A DNA stretch of 43,957 bases from Spirochaetota bacterium (lineage in GTDB: Bacteria > Spirochaetota > Spirochaetia > Treponematales > UBA12059), in assembly GCA_018816345.1 (NCBI GenBank), contig JAHIWG010000109.1:1-43957 (forward strand), given 5' to 3'. Position numbers and translations under genes: made by a program. The notes under the pieces were generated by a model. That model had not been told where the DNA came from. It searched no databases and saw only the letters and a program-made list of their open reading frames with translations. The stretch's first letter is position 1. Each line of letters begins with the position of its first letter. Below are positions 16,480-33,668 of this stretch, piece by piece.

Positions 16480-17902
16480 TCGCGTACTTCTCCGCGAATG
16501 CTACGAGGGCGTCCCTGAACGCGTTCTCTGGCGGTTTGACGAGGCCCGCGCCTACCATGCCGACGCCCGGGTCCTTGTGGGCTATGCCGGTGTTGATGGC
16601 GGGCAGGATGCCCGTCTCCACGACCTTGCGGACGTCGATGCCGGTAGGGGTGCCGCGGAAGTCCAGGACGGGGATGCGGTACGATTCGCTCTCTGCGTCC
16701 GTTATCTCGTACATGCGCATCGTCACGTCGACGGCGTCCTTAGGCGAGCCCCCGACGAATTTGACTATCGCGGGCGCCGCCGCCATCGCGAAGCCGCCTA
16801 TGCCCGAGGTCTCGGTGATCACCGAGTCGCCTATATCGCGCGAGGCGTCCGCGGGGCCGTAGCCGGGCAGGTAGAGGCCGTCGATGACGCCGGCGGGGCC
16901 GGTGAACCACCTGCCGGGAAGGCCCGACAGCTTGATGCCGAATTCGGTGCCGTTGCGCGCCATCGTCGTGATGATGGTGCTGCCCTCTATCCCCGCCGCG
17001 GCGTCTACCGAGCACTTCGCGCTGGGCATGGTCAGGTTGAGGAAGAAGTGGTCGTTGGAGTTTAGGAACGCGAGCGCCTTGGCGAGCTTCTCCTTGGGGT
17101 AGTCCAGCGTGACGATATGCGGGGCCAGCTCGCGGATGACGATGGAGGTGCCGGCGCGGTTGCGGTTGTGGCCCTCGTCGCCCATCTGGAGCACCTGGGC
17201 GATGAGGCTCCTCATGTCGACGGGCCCGTGGAGCGCCAGGGCCTCCGAGAGGATAGGAGCCAGCTCGTCCCTCATCCAGCGCAGGCGGTCGATGACCTCC
17301 GCCGAGTAGGCTCCGTAGCGCAGGACCTTGCCTAGGCCCTCGTTGAGGGTGCAGTAGGCGCGGTTGCCGAACGCCTTGTTCTCGACTATCCAGACGGGCA
17401 TGCTGGCCGTCATCACGCCGGCCATGGGGCCGACCGAGTCGTGGTGATGGCAGGGCTCGAAGCGGACCTTGCCGGAGGCGGCCATCGCCTCGGCCTCGGC
17501 GGCGTCCTTGGCGAGGCCCTCGTATATGAGGCCCCCTATGACGGCGCCCCGCAGCGGCCCGCACATCCTCTCCCAGGTCACGGGAGGGCCAGCGTGCAGT
17601 ATCAGGTCCCGGGCCATGCCGGGGACGACGTCCTTCGCGACGCCTATGCCCACGACCGTCGGCTCGGCCGCCAGGATGCGCCTTACGGCCTCCGCGTTGG
17701 CCTTCTCCACGTCCACGGTCGTCCCCGCCGCGATGGCGTCCAGGGCCGCTATGGCCTTCCCGTCGCCTCCGGCCGGCGGCCGCCAATCCACGTGGACGGC
17801 GCGGGCGCCCTCGCTGGCGAGGTTGGCCGCGAAGGATTCGAGCCCGAGGTTGACGGCGACGAGCTCCGCCCCGAAGAGGTCTAGAATCGGCTGTACGTTC
17901 AT
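16475..17902 (-). CDS. allG: DUF1116 protein, AllG-like subunit of oxamate carbamoyltransferase
   Basis: A 475-residue DUF1116 (YlbE-type) protein. In E. coli the FdrA-YlbE-YlbF set (AllF, AllG, AllH) has been reported as the oxamic transcarbamylase of allantoin use, converting oxalurate and phosphate to oxamate and carbamoyl phosphate. The sequence shows family features such as ERMCGPLRGA, CHHHDSVGPMAGVMTASMP and EGLGKVLRYGAYS. The open frame extends upstream into fdrA, but the ATG at 17900-17902 overlaps the fdrA stop as ATGA, so that start is preferred. The symbol reflects family and context; since the purine or pyrimidine substrate here is unproven, the true ureido substrate may differ. 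Confidence 0.88.
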   Translation of the reverse strand: MNVQPILDLFGAELVAVNLGLESFAANLASEGARAVHVDWRPPAGGDGKAIAALDAIAAGTTVDVEKANAEAVRRILAAEPTVVGIGVAKDVVPGMARDLILHAGPPVTWERMCGPLRGAVIGGLIYEGLAKDAAEAEAMAASGKVRFEPCHHHDSVGPMAGVMTASMPVWIVENKAFGNRAYCTLNEGLGKVLRYGAYSAEVIDRLRWMRDELAPILSEALALHGPVDMRSLIAQVLQMGDEGHNRNRAGTSIVIRELAPHIVTLDYPKEKLAKALAFLNSNDHFFLNLTMPSAKCSVDAAAGIEGSTIITTMARNGTEFGIKLSGLPGRWFTGPAGVIDGLYLPGYGPADASRDIGDSVITETSGIGGFAMAAAPAIVKFVGGSPKDAVDVTMRMYEITDAESESYRIPVLDFRGTPTGIDVRKVVETGILPAINTGIAHKDPGVGMVGAGLVKPPENAFRDALVAFAEKYAI

Positions 17903-19509: not shown

Positions 19510-19536
19510 CGCATCACCGAATCCTTCCGTAGCTAA

Positions 19537-20478
19537 TCATAGCGCATCGGGCCGCTGTCCGCGATAGCCCGTCGCGTCCAGGAATCCCGCCATCGCGTCC
19601 TCTCCCGAGCTCGCGCCGTGCCCGAGGGCCGCCCTCGCGGCCTCGCGCAATCGGCGCTCGTCCGCTTTCGCGGCGGCCGCGGCTATCGCCAGCTCGACGA
19701 GGTAGGCGGGCGGCGCGCCGGCGATCGCGCCGGCCAGGAGCGCCCTGCCCGCCGGGGTCGTCCGCGGCAGCGCGGCCTCCAGCGCCGATCGGAGCTCCGG
19801 CTCGGACGATCGCGGGCCGCCCTCGAGCAGGTCCCGGCCCGTCAGGTAGCCCGCGATCCAGTCGTCGCCCGCCGGCGTGGAGCCGGGGCCGAAGCCCACG
19901 AGATCGGCCGGGAAGCCCGGCCCGGCCCGGAGCCGGCGGAACGCGTCCCCGAACGGCCCCGCGCCGTGGATGCCGTCGGGCGACCTGACTGGCCCGCGCG
20001 CCGACGCGAGCTCGTCGGCGAGTATCCGCGCCGCGTCGCTGAGCCCGCTTGGAGCCGATGCGCGCTCCGGGTCGTTATCGTCGCCCGCCGCCCCTCGCGC
20101 CGCCGGGGGCCTAGCCCGTAAGCGGGCCGACGCCTCGAGGAGCGCCGGCCTGGGATCCCACGGGAACGCCCCGGCGACGATCGCCTCGGCCGCTACGGCC
20201 GAGGTCGCCGCGCCTCCCGCTATCCCGAGCCCCTCGCGGTCGTAGGAGGCCCGGGCAAACCCGCCGTCGGCCCGGAGCGCGAGCCCGGCCGTCCGGGAGA
20301 ACTCGTCGAAGCCCTCCTCTACGACGAAGGCCCTGGCGTCCATGTTATCGGGAAGGCCCACTACCGAGACGGCGGCCCCGTCGCCGTGGAGGAGCGTGAC
20401 GGCCTTCGCGGTCGCGCCGATCACCCGCGCGGTCCACGGCGGCGGAGGGACGAGGAAGCCGATTGTCGATACGCGCAC
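19537..20478 (-). CDS. allH: DUF2877 protein, AllH-like subunit of oxamate carbamoyltransferase
   Basis: A 313-residue DUF2877 (YlbF-type) protein, the third member of the FdrA-DUF1116-DUF2877 set. Its hallmark GLGPG.TP.GDD..AGYL appears as VGFGPGSTPAGDDWIAGYL near residues 190-208. The start is a GTG at 20476-20478 placed 7 bases after a GGAGGGGG site. An Ala/Arg-rich insertion around residues 120-150 looks like a flexible linker. It follows an intrinsic terminator that separates it from the permease gene, so the three carbamoyltransferase genes may have partly independent expression, either by readthrough or from a promoter not seen. Confidence 0.85.
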   Translation of the reverse strand: MRVSTIGFLVPPPPWTARVIGATAKAVTLLHGDGAAVSVVGLPDNMDARAFVVEEGFDEFSRTAGLALRADGGFARASYDREGLGIAGGAATSAVAAEAIVAGAFPWDPRPALLEASARLRARPPAARGAAGDDNDPERASAPSGLSDAARILADELASARGPVRSPDGIHGAGPFGDAFRRLRAGPGFPADLVGFGPGSTPAGDDWIAGYLTGRDLLEGGPRSSEPELRSALEAALPRTTPAGRALLAGAIAGAPPAYLVELAIAAAAAKADERRLREAARAALGHGASSGEDAMAGFLDATGYRGQRPDAL

Positions 20479-20491
20479 GATGGCCCCCTCC

Positions 20492-20525
20492 GAGAATAAA
20501 GAGGCCGCCCCGTCGGGGCGGCCTC
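20492..20525 (-). terminator. Intrinsic terminator between permease and allH-like gene
   Basis: An 11-bp perfect GC stem (GAGGCCGCCCC / GGGGCGGCCTC, three-base loop, 20501-20525) is followed on the minus strand by TTTATTCTC. It lies 24 bases past the permease stop and immediately before the ribosome site of the allH-like gene. Confidence 0.8.
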
Positions 20526-20548
20526 CATCGTCGTCCCTAGTCCCTGCT

Positions 20549-21808
20549 TCAGTCGCACTCGGCCGACGTTATGTCCTTCGGCCGGAGTATCAGGTTGAGC
20601 ACTATGCCGAATATGGCCGCGAGGCCGAGGCCCGAAAGGTTGATGTTGCCGAACTTGAAGGCGGCGCCGCCGAGGCCCAGCACCAGCATCGTCGCGGTGA
20701 TGATGAGGATCTTGGGGTTGCTCATGTTGAGCTTGGCGTCGACCATGTTCTTGATGCCTATCGAGGAGATCATGCCGAACAGCAGGATGGAGATGCCGCC
20801 GATTACGGGGCCGGGAATAGTGCCGATGAGGGCCGTGAATTTAGGGATAAGCGACAGCATGATGGCGAAGATCGCCGCGATGCGCATGATGATGGGGTTC
20901 TTGGCCCCGGTCAGCGCCACGGCGCCCGTGTTCTCGGAATAGGTGGTATTGGCCGGTCCGCCGATGAACGCGGAGAGGCTCGTCGCCAAGCCGTCGCCGA
21001 TGAGCGTGCGGTGGATGCCCGGATCCTTGATGAAATCCTGGCCGACCACGTTGCCGATCGCCAGCACGTCGCCGAAATGCTCGACCATCGTGACGATGGC
21101 TATCGGGACCATGATGGTGATGGCTTCCAGGGAGAATTTAGGCAGGCTGAACTTGGGGAAACCGATCCACGCGGCCTTCTGCACGCTGGAGAAGTCTACC
21201 TGGCCGAGGATTATGGCGAAGATATAGCCGGCCACGAGCGCGATGAGGACGGGCAGGTTGGACATGAACTTCCAGCCGAATTTCGGGAAGCCCACCTTGA
21301 CGAAGATGCCCACGGCGAACGTGAACAGCGCGATGCCCCAGGCTCCGTTGACGCCGATCGCATCGACGATGGGCTTGGAGAACGCGCCGCTGGCGTTCTG
21401 GATGGCGACCGGCGCCAGTATCAATCCTATCAGGATAATCATAGGCCCGGTCACGTGGGGCGGCAGGATCTTATGCAGGTTCTCGTACGAGACGAACTTG
21501 AAGATGATGGCCACCACGACGTACAGGATGCCGGCCACGACTATGCCGCCGAGGGCGTAGGGCAGGCCCTGGCTGGCGCCTACCGCCACGATGCCGGGTA
21601 TGAAGGCGAAGGAGCTTCCGAGGAAGACCGGCACCTTGAATTTGGTGATGATGTGGAACAACCAGGTCCCGACGCCCGCGGCGAACAGGGTAACTCCCAC
21701 GTCGAGCCCGGTGATGATGGGCACCAGCACCGTCGCACCGAACATGACGAACGTGTGCTGGAGTCCCATTACGACGTTCTTGCCGGTCAGATCTTTTTCC
21801 TTCTCCAC
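20549..21808 (-). CDS. Uracil/xanthine permease, NCS2 family
   Basis: A 419-residue inner-membrane nucleobase:cation symporter. The first helix has the NCS2 QH motif (MGLQHTFVMFGATVLVP), helix 8 has MVEHFGDVLAIGN, and the signature in helix 10 reads GGPANTTYSENTGAVALTG, whose TTYxEN form is closer to uracil permeases (UraA/PyrP) than to xanthine/urate ones. The frame is open 18 codons upstream, but GTG at 21806-21808 follows an AAAGGAG site by 7 bases and is the likely start. It lies between the molybdenum hydroxylase and the carbamoyltransferase genes, so it probably imports the nucleobase they degrade. A terminator follows it. Confidence 0.93.
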   Translation of the reverse strand: MEKEKDLTGKNVVMGLQHTFVMFGATVLVPIITGLDVGVTLFAAGVGTWLFHIITKFKVPVFLGSSFAFIPGIVAVGASQGLPYALGGIVVAGILYVVVAIIFKFVSYENLHKILPPHVTGPMIILIGLILAPVAIQNASGAFSKPIVDAIGVNGAWGIALFTFAVGIFVKVGFPKFGWKFMSNLPVLIALVAGYIFAIILGQVDFSSVQKAAWIGFPKFSLPKFSLEAITIMVPIAIVTMVEHFGDVLAIGNVVGQDFIKDPGIHRTLIGDGLATSLSAFIGGPANTTYSENTGAVALTGAKNPIIMRIAAIFAIMLSLIPKFTALIGTIPGPVIGGISILLFGMISSIGIKNMVDAKLNMSNPKILIITATMLVLGLGGAAFKFGNINLSGLGLAAIFGIVLNLILRPKDITSAECD

Positions 21809-21955
21809 GGCCTGCTCCTTTCGCGACGCGACCCCGATACGGGGGCCTCGAAGCGCATACAAGGCGGTAGTCGCCCCAGCGGCCGACGGCCGCGGGTCGG
21901 GGCGCTCCGCGAACGGCCCCTAGCGCGGGCCGAGCGGTACCTGCGTCGTTCTCCC

Positions 21956-24391
21956 TCAGCCCCTGTTCCTGGCCTCGGGAGCGGATCGGCATGAGCCGAT
22001 CGGCGATTTCGTGATCCAGTTGTCTATAGGCTCCTTCTTGGTCAGGGCCCTCCAGACGTCCTCGAAGCGCATGGGCATGTGCATGATCTCGGCGCCCGTC
22101 GCCTTCTGGATGGCGTTGCCTAGGGCCGGCGCCACCGAGATCATCGAATGCTCGCCTACGCCGCGGGCGCCGTACGGGCCGTCTATCTGAGGCGTCTCCA
22201 CGACGGCGCACTCGATCTCCATGGGCAGGTCCTTGGCCGTAGGTATCTTGTTGTCGGTGAAGGACGGGTTGAGGAGCCGGCCCTGCTGGTCGTAGATGTA
22301 CCCCTCGCAGACGGCCGTCCCCAGGCCCTGGATCATGCCACCTATGGCCTGCCCCCGCACGATGTCCGGGTTGATGGCCCTGCCCACGTCGTAGACGCTG
22401 GCCACCTTGAGGACGCGATACTCGCCCGTGGCCTCGTTAACCTCGACTATCATGCCGTGGGCGCCGTAGGTCCAGTCTATGGCCGGGCTGCCCTCGCCCG
22501 TGTTCTTATCCAGGTTGGACAGGCCCTGCGCGATGTACCGGCCCACGCCTATGATGGGGCCGCCGATGCCGTTGCCGTTAGGCATCGCGAGGCCGACGGC
22601 CATGGCGGAGAAGGCTACCGAGCTGGCCGGATGGTGCTTGACGAAGACTCTGTCGCCGTCGTGGCCGAGGTCCCTCGGATTGGCGCGCAGGGCCTCGGCG
22701 GCGACCGCGTAGGCGTTCCTGAGCATGTCCTCCGCGGCGAGTATGGCGGCGTTGCCCGAGAGGAGGAGCCCCTTGGACGCGACGGTCTGCCAGTCGTAGG
22801 GGTCGCGGTCGGTGTCGTTCTCGAAGGCGACTTTTACCTTCTCGATGGGGAAGCCGAGGCGCTCGGCGACTATCTGCCGGATCGAGGCGTAGGTTCCCTG
22901 GCCGTAGTCCGTCAAGGCAAGGTTCACCAGCACCGAGCCGTCCTCGTTCATCTTGAGGACGACCGCCGTGGCGGTGAACGACGGCATCGCGGGCGCCTTC
23001 TGCAGGGCGGCCACGCCCTTGCCTATCTTCCAGCCCGTCTTCTCCTGCCTCCGTAGCTCGTCCGCGCTCAGGGACCCGTACCCGATCATGCGGGCGGCTT
23101 CCTCTATGCACTTGACGACGTTGCCGGTGCTCGGGAGTATCGTCTCCCCCGTCATCGTCTTGGACCCGGGCCTGAGCGCGTTCCTGAGCCTGAACTCGAG
23201 GGGGTCCATGCCTATGGCCTGCGCAATGAGCTCCATGTGCCGCTCCACGGCCCAATGGAATTCCACGTGGCCGAAGCCGCGGTAGGCCGTGCCGTAGGGC
23301 TTGTTAGTGTAGATGGTGTAGGCGTCGACCCAGGCGTTGGGGATCTCGTAGGGGCCCGAGGCGGAGAAGCCGGAGGCGCGGGTCACGTTGACGGCGTAGT
23401 CGGCGTACGCGCCCGAATCCCAGTACATCGTCATGTGCTGGGCCTGGATCCTGCCGTCCGCGGAGACGCCCGTCTTGATGCGGTAGGTCAGGGCCGAGCG
23501 GCAAGGGAGGAGGCTGAATTCCTCCTCGCGGCTGGCCTGGAACTTGACCGGCTTGCCCCCTGCCTTGCGGGAGAGCACGGCGCACAGGGGCTCTATGCCG
23601 ATGCCCGCCTTGCCGCCGAAGCCGCCGCCCACGTAGGGTATCTGGACCCGCACGTTGATGTGGGGCAGGCCGAAGGCGTGGCAGAACAGGTTGCGGACGG
23701 TGAAGGGCGACTGGGCGCTCGTCCAGATGCTCACCCTGTCCCCCCTGGCCCACTGCACTATCGCCACGTGCGTCTCCATGGGGACGTGCTGGACGGACGG
23801 GCAGGAATACTCGCGCTCGACGATGTACTCGGAGGCCTCGAAGCCCTTGTCCACGTCTCCCTTGCGGAGCTTGGTATGGTTGGCGATATTGGTGCCCGGC
23901 TTGGGAGTGAAGACCGCCTCTATATAGGAGTACGTGCCGAGCTCGGGATGCACGAGCGGCGCGTCCGGCTTGAGGGCGTCCATGTGGTGGAGCACCGGCG
24001 GTAGCGGCTCGTACTCGACCTCTATAGCCTCGACGGCCGCGCGCGCCTGCTCCAGGGTCTCGGCGGCGACCGCGGCGACGGCCTCGCCGTAGTGGCGGAC
24101 CTCGCCCTTGGCCAGGATGAATTTATCGACTATATAGAGCCCGATGTGGTAGTCGAGCTCCTCGCCGGTGACGACGGCCCTGACGCCGGGCATAGCGGCG
24201 GCCTTGGACGCGTCGATGCGCTTGATGCGCGCGCGGGCGTGCGGGCTCTTCTTGAGCTGGGCGTGGAGCATGCCGGGCAGCTCCATGTCGCTGACGAACA
24301 CGGCCTCGCCGGTGAGCTTCTCGACCATGTCCGGCCGGCCGGCCTTCTTGCCGACGTACGTCATGTCGGCGGTCTTGATATCGTCAAACAT
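21956..24391 (-). CDS. Molybdenum-binding subunit of an XDH-family hydroxylase
   Basis: An 811-residue molybdopterin-binding large subunit of the xanthine dehydrogenase family, which hydroxylates N-heterocycles using water. The N-terminal aldehyde-oxidase a/b hammerhead domain begins at GKKAGRPDMVEKLTGEAVFVSD. Cofactor-contact motifs are YVGGGFGGKAGIG, AYRGFGHVEFHWAVER and LTDYGQGTYASI, and the catalytic glutamate is in GARGVGEHS (Glu747). Its active-site loop AYRGFGHVE differs from the FRGFGGPQ of classic xanthine dehydrogenase, so xanthine, another purine, a pyrimidine or nicotinate are all possible. It overlaps the iron-sulfur subunit gene by 8 bases and has a GGAAGGGAG ribosome site inside it. 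The C-terminus carries a short basic tail that is not family-typical. Confidence 0.92.
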   Translation of the reverse strand: MFDDIKTADMTYVGKKAGRPDMVEKLTGEAVFVSDMELPGMLHAQLKKSPHARARIKRIDASKAAAMPGVRAVVTGEELDYHIGLYIVDKFILAKGEVRHYGEAVAAVAAETLEQARAAVEAIEVEYEPLPPVLHHMDALKPDAPLVHPELGTYSYIEAVFTPKPGTNIANHTKLRKGDVDKGFEASEYIVEREYSCPSVQHVPMETHVAIVQWARGDRVSIWTSAQSPFTVRNLFCHAFGLPHINVRVQIPYVGGGFGGKAGIGIEPLCAVLSRKAGGKPVKFQASREEEFSLLPCRSALTYRIKTGVSADGRIQAQHMTMYWDSGAYADYAVNVTRASGFSASGPYEIPNAWVDAYTIYTNKPYGTAYRGFGHVEFHWAVERHMELIAQAIGMDPLEFRLRNALRPGSKTMTGETILPSTGNVVKCIEEAARMIGYGSLSADELRRQEKTGWKIGKGVAALQKAPAMPSFTATAVVLKMNEDGSVLVNLALTDYGQGTYASIRQIVAERLGFPIEKVKVAFENDTDRDPYDWQTVASKGLLLSGNAAILAAEDMLRNAYAVAAEALRANPRDLGHDGDRVFVKHHPASSVAFSAMAVGLAMPNGNGIGGPIIGVGRYIAQGLSNLDKNTGEGSPAIDWTYGAHGMIVEVNEATGEYRVLKVASVYDVGRAINPDIVRGQAIGGMIQGLGTAVCEGYIYDQQGRLLNPSFTDNKIPTAKDLPMEIECAVVETPQIDGPYGARGVGEHSMISVAPALGNAIQKATGAEIMHMPMRFEDVWRALTKKEPIDNWITKSPIGSCRSAPEARNRG

Positions 24392-24869
24392 GCTCGAGCT
24401 CTCCCTTCCCGCCGGGCCGCCCGGTGAGGTCCATCACCGCCTCGACTATCTGGACGTAGCCGGTGCAGCGGCAGAAGTTGCCTTCTATCGCTTCCTTGAC
24501 CTCGTCGACGCCGGGCTTCCCGTTGTCGGCCAGCAGTTCCTTGACGGACATCACCATGCCCGGCGTGCAGAAGCCGCACTGCACGGCGTGATGCTTCTCG
24601 AAGGCTTTCTGGATGTCGGACAGCGACGGCCCCTGGGCCTCGCCCTCGATGGTGCTGATGACGGCCCCGTCGGCTTCTACCGCGAGTACCATGCATGAAT
24701 TGACGGCTCGCCCGTTCAGTATGACGGTGCAGGCGCCGCATTCGCCCATGCCGCAGCCTTCCTTGGTGCCGGTGAGCCCCAGGCCCTCGCGGAGGAAGCG
24801 GAGGAGCGTCACGTGCTCCGCGCACTCGCGCTCGTATGCCAGTCCGTTAACCGTTAGCTTGATCCTCAT
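24384..24869 (-). CDS. [2Fe-2S] subunit of the XDH-family hydroxylase
   Basis: A 161-residue electron-transfer subunit with two [2Fe-2S] centres. The plant-ferredoxin-type N-terminal domain has Cys39, Cys44, Cys47 (EGCGMGECGAC) and Cys59. The helical C-terminal domain has Cys98 and Cys101 (QCGFCTPG) and Cys133 and Cys135 (NFCRCTGY), so all eight ligands are present. It passes electrons from the molybdenum subunit to the FAD subunit. One base separates it from the FAD subunit gene and it overlaps the molybdenum subunit gene by eight bases, the common FAD-FeS-Mo order. Its length is normal. Confidence 0.95.
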   Translation of the reverse strand: MRIKLTVNGLAYERECAEHVTLLRFLREGLGLTGTKEGCGMGECGACTVILNGRAVNSCMVLAVEADGAVISTIEGEAQGPSLSDIQKAFEKHHAVQCGFCTPGMVMSVKELLADNGKPGVDEVKEAIEGNFCRCTGYVQIVEAVMDLTGRPGGKGELEHV

Positions 24870-24870
24870 A

Positions 24871-25683
24871 TCACTCGACCTCCGAGAGGAGGCGCCGTAC
24901 GTAGACGCCTATCATATGCTCGCGATACTCCTTGGTGCCCCGTACGTCGCTGATCGGGGAGACGGAGGCCAGGACCTTGCGCGCGGCCTCGTCCGGGTCG
25001 TCCTTCGCCCCGACCGTGTCGACGAGCACGGGGGTAGGGGCGGCCGAGCTGACTCCGAAGCGTAGCTCGCCGTCCTTCCTCGTCATGAGCACGCCCACTA
25101 TGCCCAGGTCGTGCCCGGCTATGCGCTTGAGCTTCAGGTACCGGCCCGCGGCGCCGGCCGACTCGGCGGGTATGATTATGGTAGCCAGGAATTCCCCCGG
25201 AACCAGGACGGTCTTCTTTACGCCGGCGAAGAAGTTGGCGAACGGCACTACCCGTTCGCCCGTCGCCGAGCGGATCACCGCGCGGGCGCCCAGGCATAGC
25301 AGGGCGGGCGCCATGTCGGAGCAGGGCGACGCGTTGACGACGTTGCCCGCGACCGTGGCGCGATTGCGCACCTGGTGGCTGGCGAGCTCGTGGGCGCAGG
25401 CGCAGAGCGACGGGTAGCGTTCCCTGGCGTCCTTGGAGCGCAGCACGTCGTTTATCGTGACGGCCGGTCCCATGGACAGGCCCTCGGAGCCGAACGCCAT
25501 CCTGTCGGCGCCCTGGAATTTCTTGACGTCGACGACTATGCGCGGCTTGAATACGCCGTTCCTGATATTCGGGATGAGGTCGGTGCCGCCGGCCAGTATC
25601 CTGCCGTCGGCCTTGATGTCGTCCAGGACCGTGGCGAGCTCGGTCGCCGTCCTCGGGGCTAGGTACCGGAATTCGTAGACCAT
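24871..25683 (-). CDS. FAD-binding subunit of the XDH-family hydroxylase
   Basis: A 270-residue CoxM/XdhB-type FAD-binding protein. FAD contacts are visible as LAGGTDLIPNIR near residues 30-41 and TVAGNVVNASPCSD near 113-126, followed by the CO-dehydrogenase flavoprotein C-terminal domain. It should pass electrons from the iron-sulfur subunit to NAD+ or another acceptor. It is the first gene of the minus-strand locus, with AAAGGTG as ribosome site and a leader that contains a promoter, an operator-like dyad and a terminator-like hairpin. Confidence 0.93.
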   Translation of the reverse strand: MVYEFRYLAPRTATELATVLDDIKADGRILAGGTDLIPNIRNGVFKPRIVVDVKKFQGADRMAFGSEGLSMGPAVTINDVLRSKDARERYPSLCACAHELASHQVRNRATVAGNVVNASPCSDMAPALLCLGARAVIRSATGERVVPFANFFAGVKKTVLVPGEFLATIIIPAESAGAAGRYLKLKRIAGHDLGIVGVLMTRKDGELRFGVSSAAPTPVLVDTVGAKDDPDEAARKVLASVSPISDVRGTKEYREHMIGVYVRRLLSEVE

Positions 25684-25775: not shown

Positions 25776-25805
25776 AGTTAAGACACCATTCGGGCGGGGT
25801 GTCAA
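25776..25805 (-). promoter_or_regulatory. Promoter and operator-like dyad for the hydroxylase operon
   Basis: Reading the minus strand, TTGACA (25805-25800), an 18-base spacer and TTAACT (25781-25776) make a plausible sigma-70-type promoter with a leader of ~85 bases. The spacer is filled by a dyad, GACACC-N10-GGTGTC (25782-25803), that would let a repressor block the polymerase. No regulator gene for it is in the window. Confidence 0.6.
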
Positions 25806-25918
25806 GAAAAACCCTATTCCCGGTGTTTTCCTCCCCGGTTTATCCGGGCGCCTGCACGGGCGCCGCTACTGGCGCCGATCTTGTGGCCGCGCGCGTTTCG
25901 TGCGAGAATCGAGCGATC

Positions 25919-26869
25919 ATGGATTCCTTCCCCATCGATACCGACGGCGGTCCGCAGGTAGTGCTCGAGCTGATCTACAGGCTTAAGGTAAAGGACGTCA
26001 TGACGTCCGCGGTCGTGACGGCCTCGCCGACGGCGAGCCTCCGCGAGGTTCAGGCCATGATGCGCGAGCGAGGCATCACCGGCGTTCCCATCGTCGAGGC
26101 GGACCGCCTCGTCGGCATCGTCTCCATCGGCGACATCATCGAGGCCCTCGACGGCGGGTGGATAGGGGAGTCGGCGGGTTCCAGGATGAGCGACTCGCTC
26201 ATCGTCCTCGAGGACGACATGCCGCTCTCGTTCGCTATCACCTACTTCAACCGCTACGGGTACAGGCGCTTCCCCGTGCTCGATAAGGACGCCTCCCTCG
26301 CGGGCATCATCACCGCGGCCGACGTCCTCAGGGCGCTGCTCATCGAGATGAACCGCGAGGTGGAGCGGCTAGAGGAGGGCCTGGCCAAGCGCAGGGCCGC
26401 GAGCGCCGCTGGCGCCGCCTCTCCCGGCTCGGGCGCGGCCGCCCCGCTCGTGATGAGCTTCGCCTGCCGCCGCTTCGACTTCGAGAACGCGGGCAAGGCG
26501 TCCGGGGAGCTTAAGAAGGCCCTCAAGGCGCTCGGGGCCGACCCCGCGTCCATACGGCGCGCGGCCATCGTCAGCTACGAGCTGGAGATGAACCAAGTCA
26601 TCCATTCCGATGGGGGGACCATGGAGTTCTCCGCCGCCGACGGCGCCGTGAGCATAGTCGCGAAGGACGACGGGCCCGGCATCGCGGACCTCGAGGCGGC
26701 CCTGACCGAGGGCTTCTCCACCGCCAACGAGTGGGTCAGGTCCCTCGGGTTCGGCGCCGGGCTCGGCCTTCCGAACGCCAAGCGATCGTCGGACGAATTC
26801 GATATTTCTTCGAAGATCGGCGTCGGCACGACCGTGCGCGCCTTAGTACGATATCAGGAGAAGACATGA
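25919..26869 (+). CDS. CBS-pair protein with HATPase (anti-sigma-like) domain
   Basis: A 316-residue cytoplasmic signalling protein. Two CBS motifs span about residues 20-140 (VKDVMTSAVVTASPTASL, then RRFPVLDKDASLAGIITAADVL); such pairs usually bind adenine nucleotides. After an Ala-rich linker, residues ~180-315 form a small GHKL ATPase like RsbW-type kinases, with an N-box ELEMNQVIHSD, DDGPGIADL and GAGLGLPNAKR. It is the first gene of a five-gene coupled cassette. I recall the same CBS-ATPase/DRTGG/PHP set beside [FeFe] hydrogenase genes in clostridia, thermotogas and treponemes. The frame opens further upstream; ATG 25919 is chosen because the family motifs start just after it, although its ribosome site is weak. 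Confidence 0.85.
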   Translation: MDSFPIDTDGGPQVVLELIYRLKVKDVMTSAVVTASPTASLREVQAMMRERGITGVPIVEADRLVGIVSIGDIIEALDGGWIGESAGSRMSDSLIVLEDDMPLSFAITYFNRYGYRRFPVLDKDASLAGIITAADVLRALLIEMNREVERLEEGLAKRRAASAAGAASPGSGAAAPLVMSFACRRFDFENAGKASGELKKALKALGADPASIRRAAIVSYELEMNQVIHSDGGTMEFSAADGAVSIVAKDDGPGIADLEAALTEGFSTANEWVRSLGFGAGLGLPNAKRSSDEFDISSKIGVGTTVRALVRYQEKT

Positions 26870-27213
26870 AGGTTTCAGAGCTTTCCGGTAAATTCGGGTT
26901 CGAGGCTATCTATCAGGCCGACGGGGACGCGGCCTTGGTCGACGGGTACGCCTCGGACCTGCTGTCCGACGTGATGGCCAAGGCGGCCGACGATTCCGCC
27001 CTGGTCACCATCCAGGCCCACAAGAACACGATAGCCGTGGCGTCGCTCGTAGGCATCCGCGCCGTCGTCATATGCAACGAACGGCCCGTCCCCGACGATA
27101 TGATCGAGGCCGCCAAGGCCGAGGCCGTATCTATCTTCAGGACGCCGAAGACGCAGTTCGAGGTTTCCGGGCTACTCTACGGAGAGCTCAGGGCTACAGG
27201 GCCCCGAGGCTAG
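26866..27213 (+). CDS. DRTGG-domain protein
   Basis: A 115-residue protein made of a single DRTGG-type domain (YASDLLSDVMAKA, LVTIQAHKNTIAVASLVGIRAVVIC, then a FRTPKTQFEVSGLLY ending). These domains accompany CBS modules and are thought to sense a small molecule, but the ligand is unknown. The ATG overlaps the stop of the CBS-ATPase gene as ATGA and follows CAGGAGAAG, so the start is firm even though the frame is open upstream. It lies 18 bases before the PHP gene in the same cassette. Confidence 0.85.
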   Translation: MKVSELSGKFGFEAIYQADGDAALVDGYASDLLSDVMAKAADDSALVTIQAHKNTIAVASLVGIRAVVICNERPVPDDMIEAAKAEAVSIFRTPKTQFEVSGLLYGELRATGPRG

Positions 27214-27231: not shown

Positions 27232-27966
27232 ATGCTCGTCGCCTGCGATCTCCATAATCACTCGTGCCTCTCGCCGTGCGGTAGCCTGGAACAATCGCCC
27301 GCCGTCCTGGCGCGCCTGGCCAGGGAGCGCGGCTTGGGCTTGGTGGCCCTGACGGACCATAATACCGCCCTCAACGCGCCGGCGTTCGCCGAGTGCGCGA
27401 GGCGGGAGGGTATCGTGGCGATGTTCGGCATGGAGGCGACGAGCGCCGAGGAGGTGCACGTCCTGTGCCTATTCTCGGCGCTCGACGTCGCCTTGGATTT
27501 CGGCCGATTCCTGGCGGCCCGGCTCCCGAGGCTTCCCTACGACCCGGCCAAGCTGGGCGACCAGGTCGTCGTCGACGCCGACGAGAACGTGCTCGACCTT
27601 CCCGAGCTATACTTCGGCGCGGCCCTCGAGCTCGGCTTCGACGAGCTGTGCACCGCGGCTAGCGGGCGCGGCGCCCTCGTGGTGCCCGCGCATATCGATA
27701 GGCCCATGTTCGGCGCCATCTCTCAGCTGGGCTTCCTCCCGGAGGGGCCCTTCGCTGCCGTCGAGGCCGTCAGGCCCGTCTCGCCGAGCGCCTCCCGAGG
27801 GCATACCGTCATCACCGGGTCGGACGCGCACTATCCCGAGCACGTCGGGAGGCGCCCCTTCGGGCTGGAACTGCCCGAAGGCTGGGACGCGGGCGGATCG
27901 GTCGACCTCGACGCGCTCCGGGACGCACTGGAGGCCGGCCGCGTCCGCCCGACGTTCTCGCCATGA
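27232..27966 (+). CDS. PHP-domain metal-dependent phosphoesterase
   Basis: A 244-residue PHP-fold hydrolase. The four metal-binding motifs are present: DLHNHSCLSPCG (residues 6-17), LTDHNT (about 41-46), a histidine in VVPAHIDRP, and SDAHYPEHVG near the C-terminus. Related small PHP proteins cleave phosphodiesters or nucleotide 3'-phosphates. As part of the signalling cassette it may make or destroy a nucleotide signal, but that is inference. Its stop overlaps the start of the histidine-kinase gene as ATGA. Confidence 0.87.
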   Translation: MLVACDLHNHSCLSPCGSLEQSPAVLARLARERGLGLVALTDHNTALNAPAFAECARREGIVAMFGMEATSAEEVHVLCLFSALDVALDFGRFLAARLPRLPYDPAKLGDQVVVDADENVLDLPELYFGAALELGFDELCTAASGRGALVVPAHIDRPMFGAISQLGFLPEGPFAAVEAVRPVSPSASRGHTVITGSDAHYPEHVGRRPFGLELPEGWDAGGSVDLDALRDALEAGRVRPTFSP

Positions 27967-30900
27967 GCCGCGCGCTAGCCCCGCTCCTTCTCGCCGCGAT
28001 CACGACCGTGTTGGCCGCTTCCGTCGGAGCGGCCGGCCCAGGCGGCGCGGCCGGAGCTACGGCGGCCGGCGCGGCGGCGGAGGGAGGCGCGGGCCTCGAG
28101 ACCGTAACGCTGCATGGCGGGCCCGCGTCGCTGGCCGGCGCGCTCAGGGTCCACGTCGAGGGGCCGTACGGAGCCTCCTCGTCCGTCTTCGGCCCCGTTC
28201 CAGACCGCGCGTTCTTCTCCCGCCTGCCCGTCCCCCCGTACGGCGGCGTCGGGACGGCCCTGCGCGACGAGGCGCTCTCCGGGTACGCCGTCTGGCTGGC
28301 CTTCTCCGTCGAGAACGCCACGAGCGGGGAGCGCTGGTTCCTCGTAGGCGACGGCGCCGGGTTCAACCCCTCGGCGTTGGTCGTCGTGGACGAGCGCGGA
28401 GCCTCGGAGCGCTTCGCGGGAGACTCCCTGGAACGGCTGCGCCTGAGCTCGGGCCTGGAAGACGTGGTCGCCTACGGGCTCGGCCTGCCTTCCGGCGAGC
28501 GCCGCGCGGTGTACGTCCGCCTCGAGGGAGCCGCCTTCGGCGCCGGGCTGAACCTCTGGCCCGCGGAGGCGATCGAGGCCCGCGTCGAGAAGCTGGTCAG
28601 GGTCCAGGGCCTGCTCGCGGGCTTCGCGCTGGCGGCCTGCGCGGCCTTCGCGTTCGTCTCCTCGAGGCCCGGGCCCGCCTCCGCCCGTCCTAGGTATTCA
28701 TCCGCCCTCGGCCTGGCGTTCTCGTCGACGGCTTTCCTCGCCGTCGCGCTCGGGGCCGGGGGCGGCGGCGTCTCGGCGCTTACGAGCGGCGCCGGGCTGC
28801 CCCGATACGCCGCGTCCGTCGCGTTAGGCCTGGCCGCGATCTCCCTCGAGGCCGCGATGGCGCTCGTCCAGGCTCGAGGCCGCGGGCGAGCCGGCCAGGC
28901 CGTCGTAGCGCGCGTAATCGTTCCCAGGCTCGCCTTCGCTACTACGCTCCTCGTCTCCGCCGTTTCGACGGCGTCGCCCCTCGCCTCCTACGCGTTGCCG
29001 GTCGGGCTGGCCTGCCTCGTCGGCCTAAGGGGGGCGCTCGCCGCCGCGGCCTATTCTGGGAGGGCGCTCGCCGGGATGGAGGAGGCTGCCCGGCTGACGG
29101 TCAAGCTCGAATCGGAGATGAAGGGCGGTCGCGATTTCATGACGGCGACGGCCGCCGCGCTACGCGCCCCGCTAAACGGCCTGGTCGCCACGCTGGAGGA
29201 TCTCGACGCTATACTGGCCGAATGCCCGGCCATTCCGGGCCCCGCGACGTCGGACCTGGCGCTCGCCCGGGCGGAGGCCTCCAGGCTCGACACGCTCGTC
29301 TCCAACATCCTCAGCTATTCCGGCATCGGCCCGGCGCGCCTTTCTATAGAGGATTTCGACTTGTCGTCGGTAGCCAGGTCCGCCGCCGGGCTACTCCGCG
29401 TCGCTATATCGGGCAGGGGCGTGCGCATCGACGTCGACCTGCCCATACTAGAGCTGCGCAGCGATATAGGCGTATCCCACCGCCTGCTCTACACCGCCAT
29501 GAGCCGGGCCGCGGGGAACGAGGGGACGACGACCGTGCGCGTCCGGGCCTCGTCAGGCGAGCGCGGAGCGACGTTGACTGTCGAGTACGACGGAGCCTCC
29601 TACGTCGATCCGGGCGCGGGGGCGCTTCCCGGCGTCGAGCCGGCCTTGGACATGGACCTGGCCGTGATGTCCAGGCTGGCGTCCCAGCTCGGAGGGGCTT
29701 TCTACAGGCGCGTCGAGGGCGACCGCGGCGCGTACGTCATCGAGCTGCCGAGGACGAGCCCCGCCGACGGCGAGGCCGGCCCCGCCGAGCGCGGCGCGCG
29801 GCCTCCCGCCCGTCCGTCCTCCCGACCCATCGCCGGACCCCTAGCCCGGGGCATACGGGCCTCGGTGGACCTGGGCGCATCCCCGTCCCCGAGTCCCGCC
29901 CGCGCCGCGGGGAGGATACTCGTCGCCGGAAACGAGCCGGTGGCCCTGTTGTCCATGAAGCGACGGCTCGAGTCGTCGGGCTGGCTCGTCTACGCCACGG
30001 TATCGGCGAACGAGGCCCTGGAACGCCTCCTGGGCGAGGATCCCTACGATATCGCCATAGTCGACTCCGTCATGCCCGAGATGAGCGGGTTCAAGTTCTG
30101 CGAGTCGGTCAGGGCCTCGAGGCTAGGCGAATCCGTGCCGCTGATCGTGCTCATCGAGTCGGGGAGGCCCGACGAGATAGAGCTCGCGTTCCGTTCCGGG
30201 GCCAGCGACTATATCGCGCGTCCCGCGTCCGGGCTCGAGCTGGCAGTCAGGGTCAAGACCCACGTCGAGCTGGCCGCCAGCGTCAAGAGGGAGCTCGAGC
30301 AGGCCGCCAGGATGGCGGAATTCGATAAGTACCGGACGCTCGCCATGCTGTCCGCGGGGGTAGCCCACGAGATCAATACGCCCAACAACGCGGTGCTCAG
30401 GAACGTCCCCATGCTCAAGGAGATATGGTCGGCCCTGGAGACCGTGGTCGAGCGGCTGAACCGCGAGGAAGGCGGCTTCAGCGTCCGGGGCTTCGGCTAC
30501 GATGACCTCAGGCGGGAGATCCCCGATATCCTCAACGACCTGTACATGGGCGCGCAGGACATAAAGAAGATAGTCGAGGGGTTGAAGGACTACGCGCGCT
30601 CGCCCTCTGACTCGAAGTCGTACGGCCTCGTCGACGTGAACGACGCCGTCCGGTATTCCGCTCGCCTGCTAAAGCACTCTATAGTCGTCTCGACGTCCCG
30701 CTTCGAGACCGCGCTGGCGGAAGGATTGCCGCGCGTCCGCGCCGACAGGCTGAAGCTGACCCAGGTCATCGTCAACGTGCTCGAGAACGCCCTCCAGTCG
30801 CTGCCCGATCCGAGCCGCGGGGTGAGGGTGGAAAGCTCCTCGCGGGACGAAGGCGACGGCTCCGCCTGGGTCGCGGTGCGGGTGACGGACGAGGGCGTCG

Positions 30901-31118
30901 GCATGCCGCCCGAGACGCTGGCCTCGGCGTTCGACCCGTTCTTCACGACGAAGCGCGATCGCGGCGGGTCCGGGCTCGGCCTCCCGGTCGCCTCGGGTAT
31001 AGTCCAGGACCTCGGCGGCTCGATAGAATTGCGCTCCGCGCCGGGCGCCGGAACGACGGCGACGATACGCATCCCGGCGTCCGGCCGGGACGAGGATGGT
31101 GACGATGGAAGATGCTAG
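27963..31118 (+). CDS. Hybrid histidine kinase with degenerate first kinase core and degenerate receiver
   Basis: A 1051-residue membrane sensor. It has a signal peptide (1-24), an extracellular domain (about 45-210) and a multi-helix membrane region (about 212-365) resembling 7TMR-DISM sensors. Residues ~385-600 look like a HisKA-HATPase core, but the H-box reads FMTATAAALRAPLN, with Ala398 where the phospho-accepting histidine belongs, and the ATP-lid glycine motifs are missing. A receiver follows (652-770): Asp701 is kept (IVDSVMPEMSG), but the acidic pair is Gly656-Asn657 and the usual lysine is Arg753. The last ~260 residues are a complete kinase, with His802 in GVAHEINTPNN, an N-box NVLENALQS, DEGVGMPPE, and SGLGLPVASG. 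It likely phosphorylates the response regulator encoded next, whose gene overlaps it. Confidence 0.88.
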   Translation: MSRALAPLLLAAITTVLAASVGAAGPGGAAGATAAGAAAEGGAGLETVTLHGGPASLAGALRVHVEGPYGASSSVFGPVPDRAFFSRLPVPPYGGVGTALRDEALSGYAVWLAFSVENATSGERWFLVGDGAGFNPSALVVVDERGASERFAGDSLERLRLSSGLEDVVAYGLGLPSGERRAVYVRLEGAAFGAGLNLWPAEAIEARVEKLVRVQGLLAGFALAACAAFAFVSSRPGPASARPRYSSALGLAFSSTAFLAVALGAGGGGVSALTSGAGLPRYAASVALGLAAISLEAAMALVQARGRGRAGQAVVARVIVPRLAFATTLLVSAVSTASPLASYALPVGLACLVGLRGALAAAAYSGRALAGMEEAARLTVKLESEMKGGRDFMTATAAALRAPLNGLVATLEDLDAILAECPAIPGPATSDLALARAEASRLDTLVSNILSYSGIGPARLSIEDFDLSSVARSAAGLLRVAISGRGVRIDVDLPILELRSDIGVSHRLLYTAMSRAAGNEGTTTVRVRASSGERGATLTVEYDGASYVDPGAGALPGVEPALDMDLAVMSRLASQLGGAFYRRVEGDRGAYVIELPRTSPADGEAGPAERGARPPARPSSRPIAGPLARGIRASVDLGASPSPSPARAAGRILVAGNEPVALLSMKRRLESSGWLVYATVSANEALERLLGEDPYDIAIVDSVMPEMSGFKFCESVRASRLGESVPLIVLIESGRPDEIELAFRSGASDYIARPASGLELAVRVKTHVELAASVKRELEQAARMAEFDKYRTLAMLSAGVAHEINTPNNAVLRNVPMLKEIWSALETVVERLNREEGGFSVRGFGYDDLRREIPDILNDLYMGAQDIKKIVEGLKDYARSPSDSKSYGLVDVNDAVRYSARLLKHSIVVSTSRFETALAEGLPRVRADRLKLTQVIVNVLENALQSLPDPSRGVRVESSSRDEGDGSAWVAVRVTDEGVGMPPETLASAFDPFFTTKRDRGGSGLGLPVASGIVQDLGGSIELRSAPGAGTTATIRIPASGRDEDGDDGRC

Positions 31119-32511
31119 AGGCACGGTAATCGTGGTCGACGACGACGTCGGCGTGCTCAAGCGGCTCGAGAGGCTGCTGCGCTTCGAGGGCTATGCCGAC
31201 GTGGCGCTGTGCGAGCGGGCCGACGACGCGTGGTCCGTCCTCGAGTCATCGAGGCCGGTCGCTATGGTCCTGGACCTGATGATGCCCGGCGTCGACGGCT
31301 ACGCGATGCTCGAGCGGATGCACGCGGAGCGGCCCGACGTGCCCGTGATCGTGGCTACGGCCATAGACGACCTCGACGCCGTAGTCAGGTGCATGAAGGC
31401 GGGCGCCTTCGACTACGTCCCCAAGTCGGCGGAGTCGGCGCGCCTCGTCGCTAGCCTGGAGCACGCCGCCATGATAGGCAGGCTCCTCGACGACAATAAG
31501 GCGCTGCGGGATACCCTGCTCTCCGGCGACGGGCGCGACATTCGCTTCTTCGAGGCGATAGTCACGCGCGACCGCAAGATGACCGATATTTTCCGGTATA
31601 TCGCCGCCATCGCCAGGAGCGATAAGCCTATCCTCATAACGGGCGAGTCCGGTACCGGCAAGGAGCTGTTCGCGGCGGCGGCCCATGCCGCCTCGGGGCG
31701 CTCGGGGGAGCTCGTGACGGTCAACATTGCCGGGCTCGACGACGCGATGTTCAGCGACACGCTGTTCGGGCATAAGCGGGGGGCCTTCACGGGGGCCGAG
31801 GCCGACAGGCCCGGGCTGATAGAGCGCGCCAAGGGCGGCACGCTGTTCCTCGACGAGATAGGCGACCTGCCCCAGCAGAGCCAGGTCAAGCTCCTTCGCC
31901 TCATAGAGCAGCGCCGCTATTACCCCCTTGGGGCCGACCTGACGCGCTCTTCCGACGCGCTCATCGTAGCGGCGACGAACAAGGACCTGGGAAAGGCCTG
32001 CGCGGCCGGGACGTTCAGGCAGGACCTGTACTTCAGGCTCGAGACGCACCTCGTCAGGCTTCCTCCGCTCCGGGACAGGCAGGGCGACCTGCCCCTGCTC
32101 GTCGAGCTGTTCGTAGCAAGGGCCGCGGAGCGCTTCGGCAAGCCCGCGCCGGCGGTCCCTCCCGAGCTATACGAGCTGCTGGGCGCGTATGATTTTCCCG
32201 GCAACGTCCGCGAGCTCGAGTCTATGGTGCACGACGCCGTCGGCCGGGCCCAGGGCAGGACGCTGTCGCTCGATTCGTTCAAGTCGAGGGTTTTCAAGCC
32301 GGATTCCCGTTCCGCCGCGTCCCTTCCGTTCGCGAGCGGCCTTTTCAAGTCCCTGCCGTCGTTGCCTACGCTCCGGGAGGCCGCGGACTCCTTGATAGAG
32401 GAGGCGCTCGCGCGGTCAGGCGGTAATCAGGGCGTGGCCGCGGGGCTGTTAGGCTTGTCGCGTACGGCCTTGAATCGGCGCCTCAAGCTTAGGGACGAAG
32501 AGGATGCCTGA
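31105..32511 (+). CDS. Sigma-54-dependent response regulator (NtrC family)
   Basis: A 468-residue enhancer-binding protein. The N-terminal receiver has VVDDD, phospho-acceptor Asp57 (VLDLMMPG) and YVPKS. The AAA+ domain has Walker A GESGTGKE (180-187), the sigma-54 contact loop GAFTGA (226-231), Walker B TLFLDEIGDL and the arginine-rich RQDLYFRL segment. A Fis-type helix-turn-helix closes the protein (GGNQGVAAGLLGLSRTALNRRL). An earlier ATG at 31096 is only one base from the GAGG ribosome site, while ATG 31105 is 9 bases away and is preferred. It overlaps the end of the kinase gene and is its evident partner. A consensus sigma-54 promoter ~210 bases downstream is a likely target. Confidence 0.92.
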   Translation: MEDARGTVIVVDDDVGVLKRLERLLRFEGYADVALCERADDAWSVLESSRPVAMVLDLMMPGVDGYAMLERMHAERPDVPVIVATAIDDLDAVVRCMKAGAFDYVPKSAESARLVASLEHAAMIGRLLDDNKALRDTLLSGDGRDIRFFEAIVTRDRKMTDIFRYIAAIARSDKPILITGESGTGKELFAAAAHAASGRSGELVTVNIAGLDDAMFSDTLFGHKRGAFTGAEADRPGLIERAKGGTLFLDEIGDLPQQSQVKLLRLIEQRRYYPLGADLTRSSDALIVAATNKDLGKACAAGTFRQDLYFRLETHLVRLPPLRDRQGDLPLLVELFVARAAERFGKPAPAVPPELYELLGAYDFPGNVRELESMVHDAVGRAQGRTLSLDSFKSRVFKPDSRSAASLPFASGLFKSLPSLPTLREAADSLIEEALARSGGNQGVAAGLLGLSRTALNRRLKLRDEEDA

Positions 32512-32606
32512 TCGGGTGTGCGGATTTGCACATCCGGTACGCTAATGACAAATCGATATAAATATATACAACAAATGAATATAGCATAAAGAATACTTGA
32601 TGGGCG

Positions 32607-32646
32607 CCGGTACTGGATAGGAAATTTAAACAAGGTATCCTACCGG
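32607..32646. promoter_or_regulatory. Inverted repeat, possible enhancer site for the sigma-54 activator
   Basis: CCGGTACTGGATA (32607-32619) and TATCCTACCGG (32636-32646) form a dyad with a two-base bulge, centred ~120 bases upstream of the predicted sigma-54 start, the usual distance for an activator site. A second dyad, CGGAT-TTGCAC-ATCCG (32521-32536), lies further upstream. The A+T-rich sequence between gene end (32511) and promoter holds no gene. Confidence 0.45.
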
Positions 32647-32719
32647 AGCGTCGGTGCTATAGTGACCTTAACTTTATTTATTGTATATACATATTAGAAA
32701 GATTATGGTTTGTAGTTTG

Positions 32720-32736
32720 TTGGCACGGCTATTGCA
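32720..32736 (+). promoter_or_regulatory. Consensus sigma-54 promoter
   Basis: TTGGCACG-N4-TTGCA matches the -24/-12 consensus exactly, with the GG (32722-32723) and GC (32734-32735) ten bases apart. Transcription should start near 32747. It lies 208 bases after the sigma-54 activator gene and faces away from it. Confidence 0.88.
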
Positions 32737-32746
32737 TTATTATATG

Positions 32747-32891
32747 CGGGTGCTTGTGTCCCAGCAGGTAATAAAATGTGTATTTTAAAAAGTATATTAT
32801 AAAAAGTCCGCAGTAAAAAAAATGGGACCGATGTAAAGAATCGCTTATCGATTATAGCGGAGCGTCAGGGCCGACGTTCCGCTCTTTTTTT
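32747..32891 (+). ncRNA. Predicted sigma-54-dependent small RNA (~145 nt)
   Basis: The interval from the predicted sigma-54 start to the strong terminator has no convincing ORF; its only ATG frames with more than four codons encode an eight-residue peptide. It shows RNA-like structure: GTCCCA (32758-32763) can pair with TGGGAC (32823-32828) around an A/T-rich region, AATCG-CTTAT-CGATT (32839-32853) is a perfect hairpin, and the 3' end is a terminator with a T-run. A regulated trans-acting RNA fits best. A leader RNA for the hemolysin III gene, with the terminator as attenuator, is the alternative. Confidence 0.6.
32856..32891 (+). terminator. Intrinsic terminator of the predicted small RNA
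   Basis: An 11-bp stem (AGCGGAGCGTC / GACGTTCCGCT, one G-T pair, six-base loop) is followed by CTTTTTTT. It is one of the clearest terminators in the window and separates the sigma-54 transcript from the hemolysin III gene at 33000. Confidence 0.9.
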
Positions 32892-32999
32892 AAACTTCCG
32901 CGCATGCGGCCCCATTCGCGCAACCGGCGAACCCTCCCGCGGTCGAATAGTGCATGGTTCGCCGGCCATGGGTCGTCGCGAAGCATAGAAGGTAGTTAC

Positions 33000-33668
33000 A
33001 TGTCAGATCAACCAACCGCGTCTCTCGGCGTATCACCGGCCCGGTATCCTATCGGAGAGGAGATAGCCAACGCCGTCACCCACGGCGTCTGGTCACTCTT
33101 GTCGATAGCGGGGCTCGTCATCCTGGTAGTATCGGCCGCGAGCCGAGGCGACGCCTGGTACGTCGTCTCGTTCGCGATATTCGGGACCAGCTCGGTGCTC
33201 CTGTTCACGATGTCGACGCTCTATCACGCTATCAGCGCCCCGCGGGCGAAGCGCGTCCTCAAGGTCATGGACCATTCGTCGATATACGCGCTCATAGCCG
33301 GGACCTATACGCCCTTCGCGCTGACGGCGCTGCGCCCGACGGTCGGCTGGACGGTCTTCGGGATAGTCTGGGGCGCCGCCGTCATAGGTATTTCGTTGAA
33401 GCCGTTCCTGGCCGGCAAGGCCAAGCTGCTGTCGACAATAGCCTACGTCGCCATGGGCTGGATAATCGTATTCGCGTGGAAGCCGCTCACGGCCGCCGTG
33501 GATTCCAGGTCCATAGGTTTCCTTATAGCCGGAGGCGTCGCCTACACGTTGGGCGCGGCGTTCTACCTGCTGAAAGGAAGGGCCTGGTCCCACCCCGTAT
33601 GGCACCTGTTCGTCGGGGCCGGGGTCACCCTGCACTTCTTCGCGGCGCTGGCGCTGCTGCCCGCTTAA
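33000..33668 (+). CDS. Hemolysin III family membrane protein (YqfA/PAQR-like)
   Basis: A 222-residue protein with seven hydrophobic helices. Family motifs are EEIANAVTHG near the N-terminus, TLYHAI, MDHSSIYALIAGTYTPF, and HPVWHLFVGAGVTLHFF near the end; the conserved Ser/His/Asp residues suggest a metal-dependent hydrolase fold like that of PAQR receptors. Its cellular role is unknown and cytolytic activity is not implied. The frame is open 32 codons upstream, but the ATG at 33000 follows AGAAGG and precedes the family-typical start. It sits after a strong terminator, and its own promoter was not identified. Confidence 0.9.
   Translation: MSDQPTASLGVSPARYPIGEEIANAVTHGVWSLLSIAGLVILVVSAASRGDAWYVVSFAIFGTSSVLLFTMSTLYHAISAPRAKRVLKVMDHSSIYALIAGTYTPFALTALRPTVGWTVFGIVWGAAVIGISLKPFLAGKAKLLSTIAYVAMGWIIVFAWKPLTAAVDSRSIGFLIAGGVAYTLGAAFYLLKGRAWSHPVWHLFVGAGVTLHFFAALALLPA

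Follow-up and report, generated by a model that had tools for sequence, protein, structure and literature searches.

A signalling cassette in a Spirochaetota bacterium appears to have a small RNA as its output. In the window (the whole stretch of 43,957 nucleotides that was analysed), the last cassette gene, coding for a sigma-54 activator, is followed by a palindrome, a -24/-12 promoter and a unit of about 145 nucleotides that ends at a terminator. The sequence-only reading of this DNA had proposed a sigma-54-controlled small RNA tied to a CBS/DRTGG/PHP/kinase/activator cassette, a view that gains from the retention of promoter and predicted RNA in relatives. Beyond it, we found the palindrome (32517-32532), a repeated A(G/U)GUAAAAA motif in the RNA and the retention of the unit in two families. 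Judging from sequence and from analogy with CrcZ, whose arrangement is similar, we lean slightly towards the view that the regulator, once activated, drives synthesis of an RNA that would titrate an RNA-binding protein. It is a more tentative suggestion, possible rather than probable, that a dedicated five-protein cassette has an RNA as its sole direct output, one that serves as decoy for a yet undiscovered RNA-binding regulator reading A(G/U)GUAAAAA.

The exact -24/-12 promoter that had been reported just past the activator gene is indeed there, as TTGGCACGgctaTTGCA at 32720-32736 on the plus strand. It is one of four exact matches to TTGGCAYGN4TTGCW in the 3.8-Mb window genome, which encodes RpoN (PF04552, E 1.2e-53); with one mismatch permitted there are 19 matches, versus 6 for the reversed control. 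The remaining three exact promoters lie upstream of protein genes and are without the enhancer. On the basis of promoter position, conservation and a held-out test of model R2 (see below), the predicted RNA would run from 32747 to 32891 (plus strand), its start being placed 12 nucleotides past the -12 C. A length of about 145 nucleotides up to a strong terminator had likewise been claimed, and the intrinsic terminator (32856-32891, plus strand) consists of an 11-bp stem with a 6-nucleotide loop (32856-32883) and a U tract, the stem being followed by CTTTTTTT; its pairs covary among relatives. In a simple scan of 32400-33100 this was the sole terminator and no sigma-70-type promoter was found, counts that by themselves prove little, as shuffles average 0.8 sigma-70-type promoters and 0.8 terminators. 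The whole RNA, terminator included, has a folding z of -2.6. Elsewhere in the window genome, one-mismatch sigma-54-like promoters (loci L046, L042 and L047) stand, by eye, upstream of a small heat-shock protein-like gene and two sigma-70-type sigma factor-like genes, which hints at a cascade from sigma-54 to other sigma factors.

Directly past the activator stop codon lies an enhancer-like palindrome, TGTGCGGATTTGCACA, at 32517-32532, the single occurrence of TGTGC-N6-GCACA in the 3.8 Mb of the window genome. TGTGCA-N4-TGCACA, with 0-3 mismatches and within 330 bp, finds its best match 194-246 bp upstream of the promoter in 16 of the 17 RNA loci that could be assessed; the exception is genome G064, whose top match is weak and lies elsewhere. 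For G002, G070 and G064, matches of equal quality turn up in 9-11 of 100 shuffles. TGTGC-N6-GCACA is found once in G016, at the RNA locus, two times in G009 and four times in G028, one copy in each being at the RNA locus; both sites in G007 lie away from that locus, where the copy carries one mismatch. The rarity of the site genome-wide suggests that the activator has few further direct targets.

The cassette comprises five genes on the plus strand. The first (25799-26869) encodes a protein with a CBS pair and an HATPase domain (Pfam CBS 1.6e-28, HATPase_c 4.3e-7), relatives of which were found at 13 of the 16 other RNA loci, two of the three misses being cut contigs. The second (26860-27213, start chosen by overlap) encodes a small protein with a weak HPr-kinase-N match (PF02603, E 4.4e-4, below the cut-off); its DRTGG label is taken over from the sequence-only reading, a name that none of our searches returned, and tblastn gave relatives at 14 of the 16 other loci, both misses again being cut contigs. 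There follow a PHP-domain phosphoesterase-like protein (27232-27966; PF02811, E 2.6e-8, with a CehA/McbA-like match below the cut-off), a hybrid histidine kinase that is probably membrane-bound (27963-31118; HATPase_c, Response_reg and a sub-threshold HisKA) and the response-regulator sigma-54 activator itself (31096-32511; REC-AAA+-Fis HTH, GAFTGA present). The kinase homologue in G028 has a 7TMR-DISM sensor according to Pfam, the same region being unmatched in the homologues of G009, G013 and G016. All five proteins are found at 13 of the 16 other RNA loci; the incomplete cassettes are those of G064, without a detectable CBS-HATPase protein, and of G017 and G055, which are cut by contig ends. 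At the locus of a remote paralog in G015, the CBS-HATPase, DRTGG-like and PHP genes are all missing. In the open-licence literature we found no description of the RNA, of the CBS/DRTGG/PHP/kinase cassette or of the purpose of the latter.

Two metabolic connections of the cassette were considered and set aside. Beside it, on the minus strand (16475-25683), the window carries a purine-catabolism-type cluster with xanthine dehydrogenase-type subunits, AllG and CoA-ligase/FdrA-like proteins; xdh adjoins the cassette only in the window and at all five other same-genus loci, and no xdh match was obtained around the 11 other RNA loci, several of which are short stretches. The cassette had also been called "hydrogenase-type", a description that fared badly: the five [FeFe]-hydrogenase matches of the window genome are all off this contig, and PF02906 is present in all 23 family genomes, whether or not they have the cassette. 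Four hydrogenase loci of 2.8-3.9 kb from cassette-less genomes contained no cassette genes, which is weak evidence. No link of the cassette to hydrogenase was found in the open-licence literature, and the excerpts of PMC5886521 name hydrogenase operons and a PHP-domain gene apart, without a link. We regard the hydrogenase connection as not supported here, unproven rather than excluded.

Conservation was followed through the DNA and through the activator. Among 58 relatives searched at the DNA level, two genomes of the same genus have the stretch from promoter to terminator at 73-74% identity, with the match starting at the promoter; a third match, of 34 bases in a remote genome, was taken as chance. 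The activator had matches in 15 of 23 family genomes at E <= 1e-80 and in 23 of 390 order genomes at E <= 1e-110. With orthologs defined by at least 54% identity, 19 genomes were retained, of which G008 and G010 were dropped because they end before the downstream region. All 17 assessable orthologs, 11 from the window's family and 6 from a second one (both probably of spirochaete bacteria), have a sigma-54-type promoter 3' of the activator gene and then a motif-bearing RNA, the promoter being a like element everywhere and an exact match not always; most of these relatives are fragmented drafts, and related genomes are not independent. Where complete, the RNA measures 122-205 nucleotides. A terminator stem with a clear U tract is present in 14 of the 17, the tract being weak in G079, absent after the hairpin in G013 and masked in G070. 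In G003 activator and RNA are on separate contigs, and the RNA contig begins with the end of the activator gene. Where the activator match does not exceed 49% identity (L019-L021, L141-L150), the motif array is lacking, with 0-1 GUAAA per 500 bp. Behind several paralogous sigma-54 response regulators (L141, L144, L145, L147, L149 and L150; 46-49% identity) there are -24/-12-like elements too, which by eye precede chemoreceptor-like, HATPase-protein and histidine-kinase genes; to encode a target promoter right past the activator looks like a habit of the lineage, as far as sequences can tell.

The common property of these RNAs is a repeated A-rich motif. Every one of the 17 has at least one copy of [AG][GT]GUAANA, with 37 copies in all versus 3.9 +/- 1.9 in 200 shuffles (maximum 10); GUAAA occurs 51 times versus 16.7 in shuffles, and UUAAA, CUAAA and AUAAA show no enrichment. 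The motif was first noticed in the window's family, before the second family was examined, and the second family, with its six RNAs, by itself has 18 copies versus 1.1 +/- 1.1 in 300 shuffles (maximum 5). UUUAC, the reverse complement of GUAAA, occurs just once in the 17 RNAs, which argues that the motif acts as RNA. In an alignment of 8 RNAs, the motif columns are 0.80 identical versus 0.50 for the others, a gap that sequence-based alignment itself favours. The window RNA is among the least regular, with two exact GUAAA, no GGUAAA and several drifted copies (all plus strand): copy 1, AGGUAAUAAA, at 32766-32775, which fits the family motif; two degenerate copies aligned with better ones in relatives, UUUUAAAAAGU at 32783-32793 and AUUAUAAAAAGU at 32796-32807; CAGUAAAAA at 32811-32819; and AUGUAAA at 32831-32837, the last two recognised from sequence and alignment. 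The RNA of G064 has a single GUAAA. The motifs are predicted to be 0.75 unpaired, only modestly above the 0.67 of comparable A-rich sites in shuffled sequences; the figure for the RNAs as a whole is 0.48.

The last motif copy of the window RNA lies 3' of a helix, P1, formed by GUCCCA at 32758-32763 and UGGGAC at 32823-32828 (both plus strand). This is the long-range GTCCCA/TGGGAC pairing pointed out beforehand, which is present and covaries across 8 relatives; single sequences are unremarkable next to shuffles, 89 of 300 of which equal the pairing of the window. When the arms of P1 (GUCCC/GGGAC) and of the terminator were cut by hand from 8 of the 17 RNAs, 95.6% of the cells were paired and six pairs were changed on both sides, versus none in slid versions of the arms.

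Two models were used to search for further members. The structure line of model R1 was off by one column at P1 and by two at the terminator, so that the order-wide search with it rests on sequence. It returned the 10 training RNAs at E <= 4.4e-18 and matched the RNAs of G041, G055, G064 and G070 at the correct places at E 0.0025-0.014, amid 53 other weak matches taken as chance, and it missed those of G013, G028 and G079; these E-values come from a short calibration and are rough. Model R2 was made from 10 first-family RNAs with correct structure columns, although MAFFT had put the P1 arm in the wrong place in several rows. The 52 loci on which it was run comprised seven held-out RNAs (that of G013 and the six second-family ones), a single place in G603 that figured two times, and 43 further loci, of which 14 (including two that overlap) came from less similar activators and 29 from the at least 80 remote NtrC-type loci. 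The latter stem from a generic AAA+ motif scan that gave at least 80 remote NtrC-type proteins, the best among the matches listed having 44% identity. All seven held-out RNAs scored 20.0-31.6 bits, and the best of the 43 others 17.0.

G603 belongs to another order, and its place (L162/L174, 203-314) received 31.7 bits from R2. This place has an exact sigma-54 promoter and then CAGGTAAAAAAGTAGGTAAAAAC, with a long open frame from 405 that has a lipoprotein-like start; having been chosen by a pattern for the same features, near a contig start and without a clear terminator, it is a lead only. That pattern, applied phylum-wide to 392 genomes, gave matches in 10 genomes versus 8 reversed-control matches; by reading, the match in G016 is a true RNA, that in G603 a possible one, and the rest look like chance. 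As G016 was the only one recovered of seven sampled RNA-bearing genomes, the pattern is uninformative on absence. Rfam, which includes a CrcZ family, gave with cmscan at gathering thresholds a single match in the window, a tRNA, and none at the RNA; with the limit relaxed to E <= 1, 15 of the 17 loci together gave two weak matches (E 0.17), neither of them at the RNA.

We propose that the cassette works as a signalling relay, with the small RNA as its chief and perhaps its one direct output. In this scheme the CBS-HATPase, DRTGG-like and PHP proteins would tune the hybrid kinase, which would phosphorylate the response regulator; the activated regulator would bind the TGTGCA-N4-TGCACA enhancer past its own gene and loop to sigma-54 RNA polymerase at 32720, and the terminated RNA of about 145 nucleotides would accumulate. 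The A(G/U)GUAAAAA copies, mostly single-stranded between short helices, would then bind and titrate an RNA-binding protein, thereby freeing the mRNA targets of that protein, as CrcZ does with Hfq/Crc in Pseudomonas. According to excerpts of PMC8395346 and PMC8871633, CrcZ has an RpoN promoter, is encoded in the cbrB-pcnB intergenic region, contains several A-rich motifs and titrates Hfq; excerpts of PMC6292655 give six A-rich motifs for CrcZ/Y, and those of PMC6296734 concern the CbrB regulon. As far as these excerpts go, the likeness to CbrAB-CrcZ/CrcY of Pseudomonas and Azotobacter extends to the two-component system, the sigma-54 activator, the RNA gene directly downstream, the RpoN promoter, the several A-rich motifs and, as proposed here, the role of decoy for a translational repressor. 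There are also clear differences: CrcZ has 407 nucleotides, the motif is another one, there is no Rfam match here, and cbrAB is replaced by a five-gene CBS/DRTGG/PHP cassette. Moreover, CrcZ titrates Hfq, whereas Hfq (PF17209) was found over the cut-off in none of 25 genomes of our set, with 5 of 14 control genomes positive, although a very divergent Hfq could escape; the sole sub-threshold match, in the window genome, lies inside a 415-aa open frame.

The other well-known decoys are the Rsm RNAs, which titrate a translational regulator (PMC8395346, in excerpt). CsrB, RsmY and RsmZ resemble the RNA described here in repeating one short motif, but theirs is the GGA motif of CsrA/Rsm, and A.GGA is not enriched in our RNAs (6 versus 10.4 +/- 3.2 in shuffles). 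The promoters of CsrB, RsmY and RsmZ are not of the sigma-54 type. A CrcZ-like layout with no Hfq over the cut-off, no enrichment of a CsrA-type motif and no Rfam match leads us to propose a decoy for another protein. Excerpts on BosR of Borrelia, an RNA-binding regulator (PMC11109971), and on sRNA mapping in Leptospira (PMC5243855) served as background. A class of targets with the motif near the start codon did not emerge in the two genomes searched: in the window genome no AKGUAAAAA lies within 18 nucleotides of an ATG (the reversed control gives 4), and G007 has 7 such sites against 3 for its control, one of the 7 being the RNA itself and just one of the rest opening a long ORF. This outcome speaks against an RNA that simply imitates initiation sites.

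The alternative that survives best is a small RNA acting by base pairing, in which a 5' GGUUGG-type segment or the A-rich middle would pair with mRNAs and the repeats would be chaperone sites or spacers. We consider it unlikely, though still to be taken seriously. A precedent exists in the Vibrio Qrr RNAs, which are sigma-54-dependent, stand under LuxO and act by base pairing with Hfq; LuxO is an NtrC homologue and qrr1 a small RNA gene, and here too a small RNA is predicted to be under an NtrC-type response regulator. GUUGG is moreover found in the first 25 nucleotides of 8 of the 17 RNAs (shuffle mean 0.46, maximum 3) and may be a second functional element. It is absent, however, from the other nine, including that of the window, whereas each of the 17 carries the A-rich motif; there is no seed that all members share, A-rich seeds pair weakly, and the failure to detect Hfq over the cut-off in the 25 genomes also speaks against pairing of the Qrr kind. 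The A-rich middle, which had been offered beforehand as a region for target pairing, is indeed present, but it makes more sense as a series of repeated binding sites for a protein than as an antisense stretch.

Far less probable is a regulated 5' leader, or attenuator, of the HlyIII gene with the terminator as switch. HlyIII is the next gene in the same direction at 8 of the 17 loci, the window among them, but no match to it was found in the DNA examined around the other nine. The RNA thus keeps company with the activator rather than with HlyIII, and no downstream gene is common to all RNA loci. At five loci (G009, G018, G013, G028 and G041) the next gene is convergent, so that the RNA cannot be its leader, which makes this reading untenable as a general account.

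It is equally improbable that the repeats act as DNA, as sites past the start for a nucleoid protein or a repressor, with an incidental transcript. A-tracts can bend DNA and the copies come every 13-16 bp in several members, but this reading sits poorly with the strand bias of 51:1, the RNA helix covarying in 8 members, the terminator kept in most and a repeat spacing that varies and is not helical. Least credible of all is an mRNA for a short peptide: short frames exist in single members (a TTG frame from nucleotide 8-9 is open for 12-24 codons in four of six same-genus RNAs, those of G006, G005, G002 and G003, and one frame of G016 is stop-free throughout), but the TTG frame has 5 codons in the window and is absent in G007, the 7-8 nucleotides before it leave scant room for a ribosome-binding site, the motif itself contains UAA, and the search with ATG, GTG and TTG starts gave no coding frame common to members, the longest ORFs within the predicted RNA of the window having 8-12 codons, in keeping with the original statement that there is no credible ORF.

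To our knowledge, the sigma-54-dependent small RNAs known are proteobacterial. If the decoy reading is true, a conserved family built on the plan of CrcZ would exist in another lineage, with another motif and no detected Hfq, and this would point to an undescribed post-transcriptional regulator there. It would add a further decoy system to those of CsrA/Rsm and Hfq/Crc, in bacteria without a detected Hfq. The small RNA would give an output to the CBS/DRTGG/PHP/kinase cassette, and, bearing the motif, it would be a ready bait for finding that regulator.
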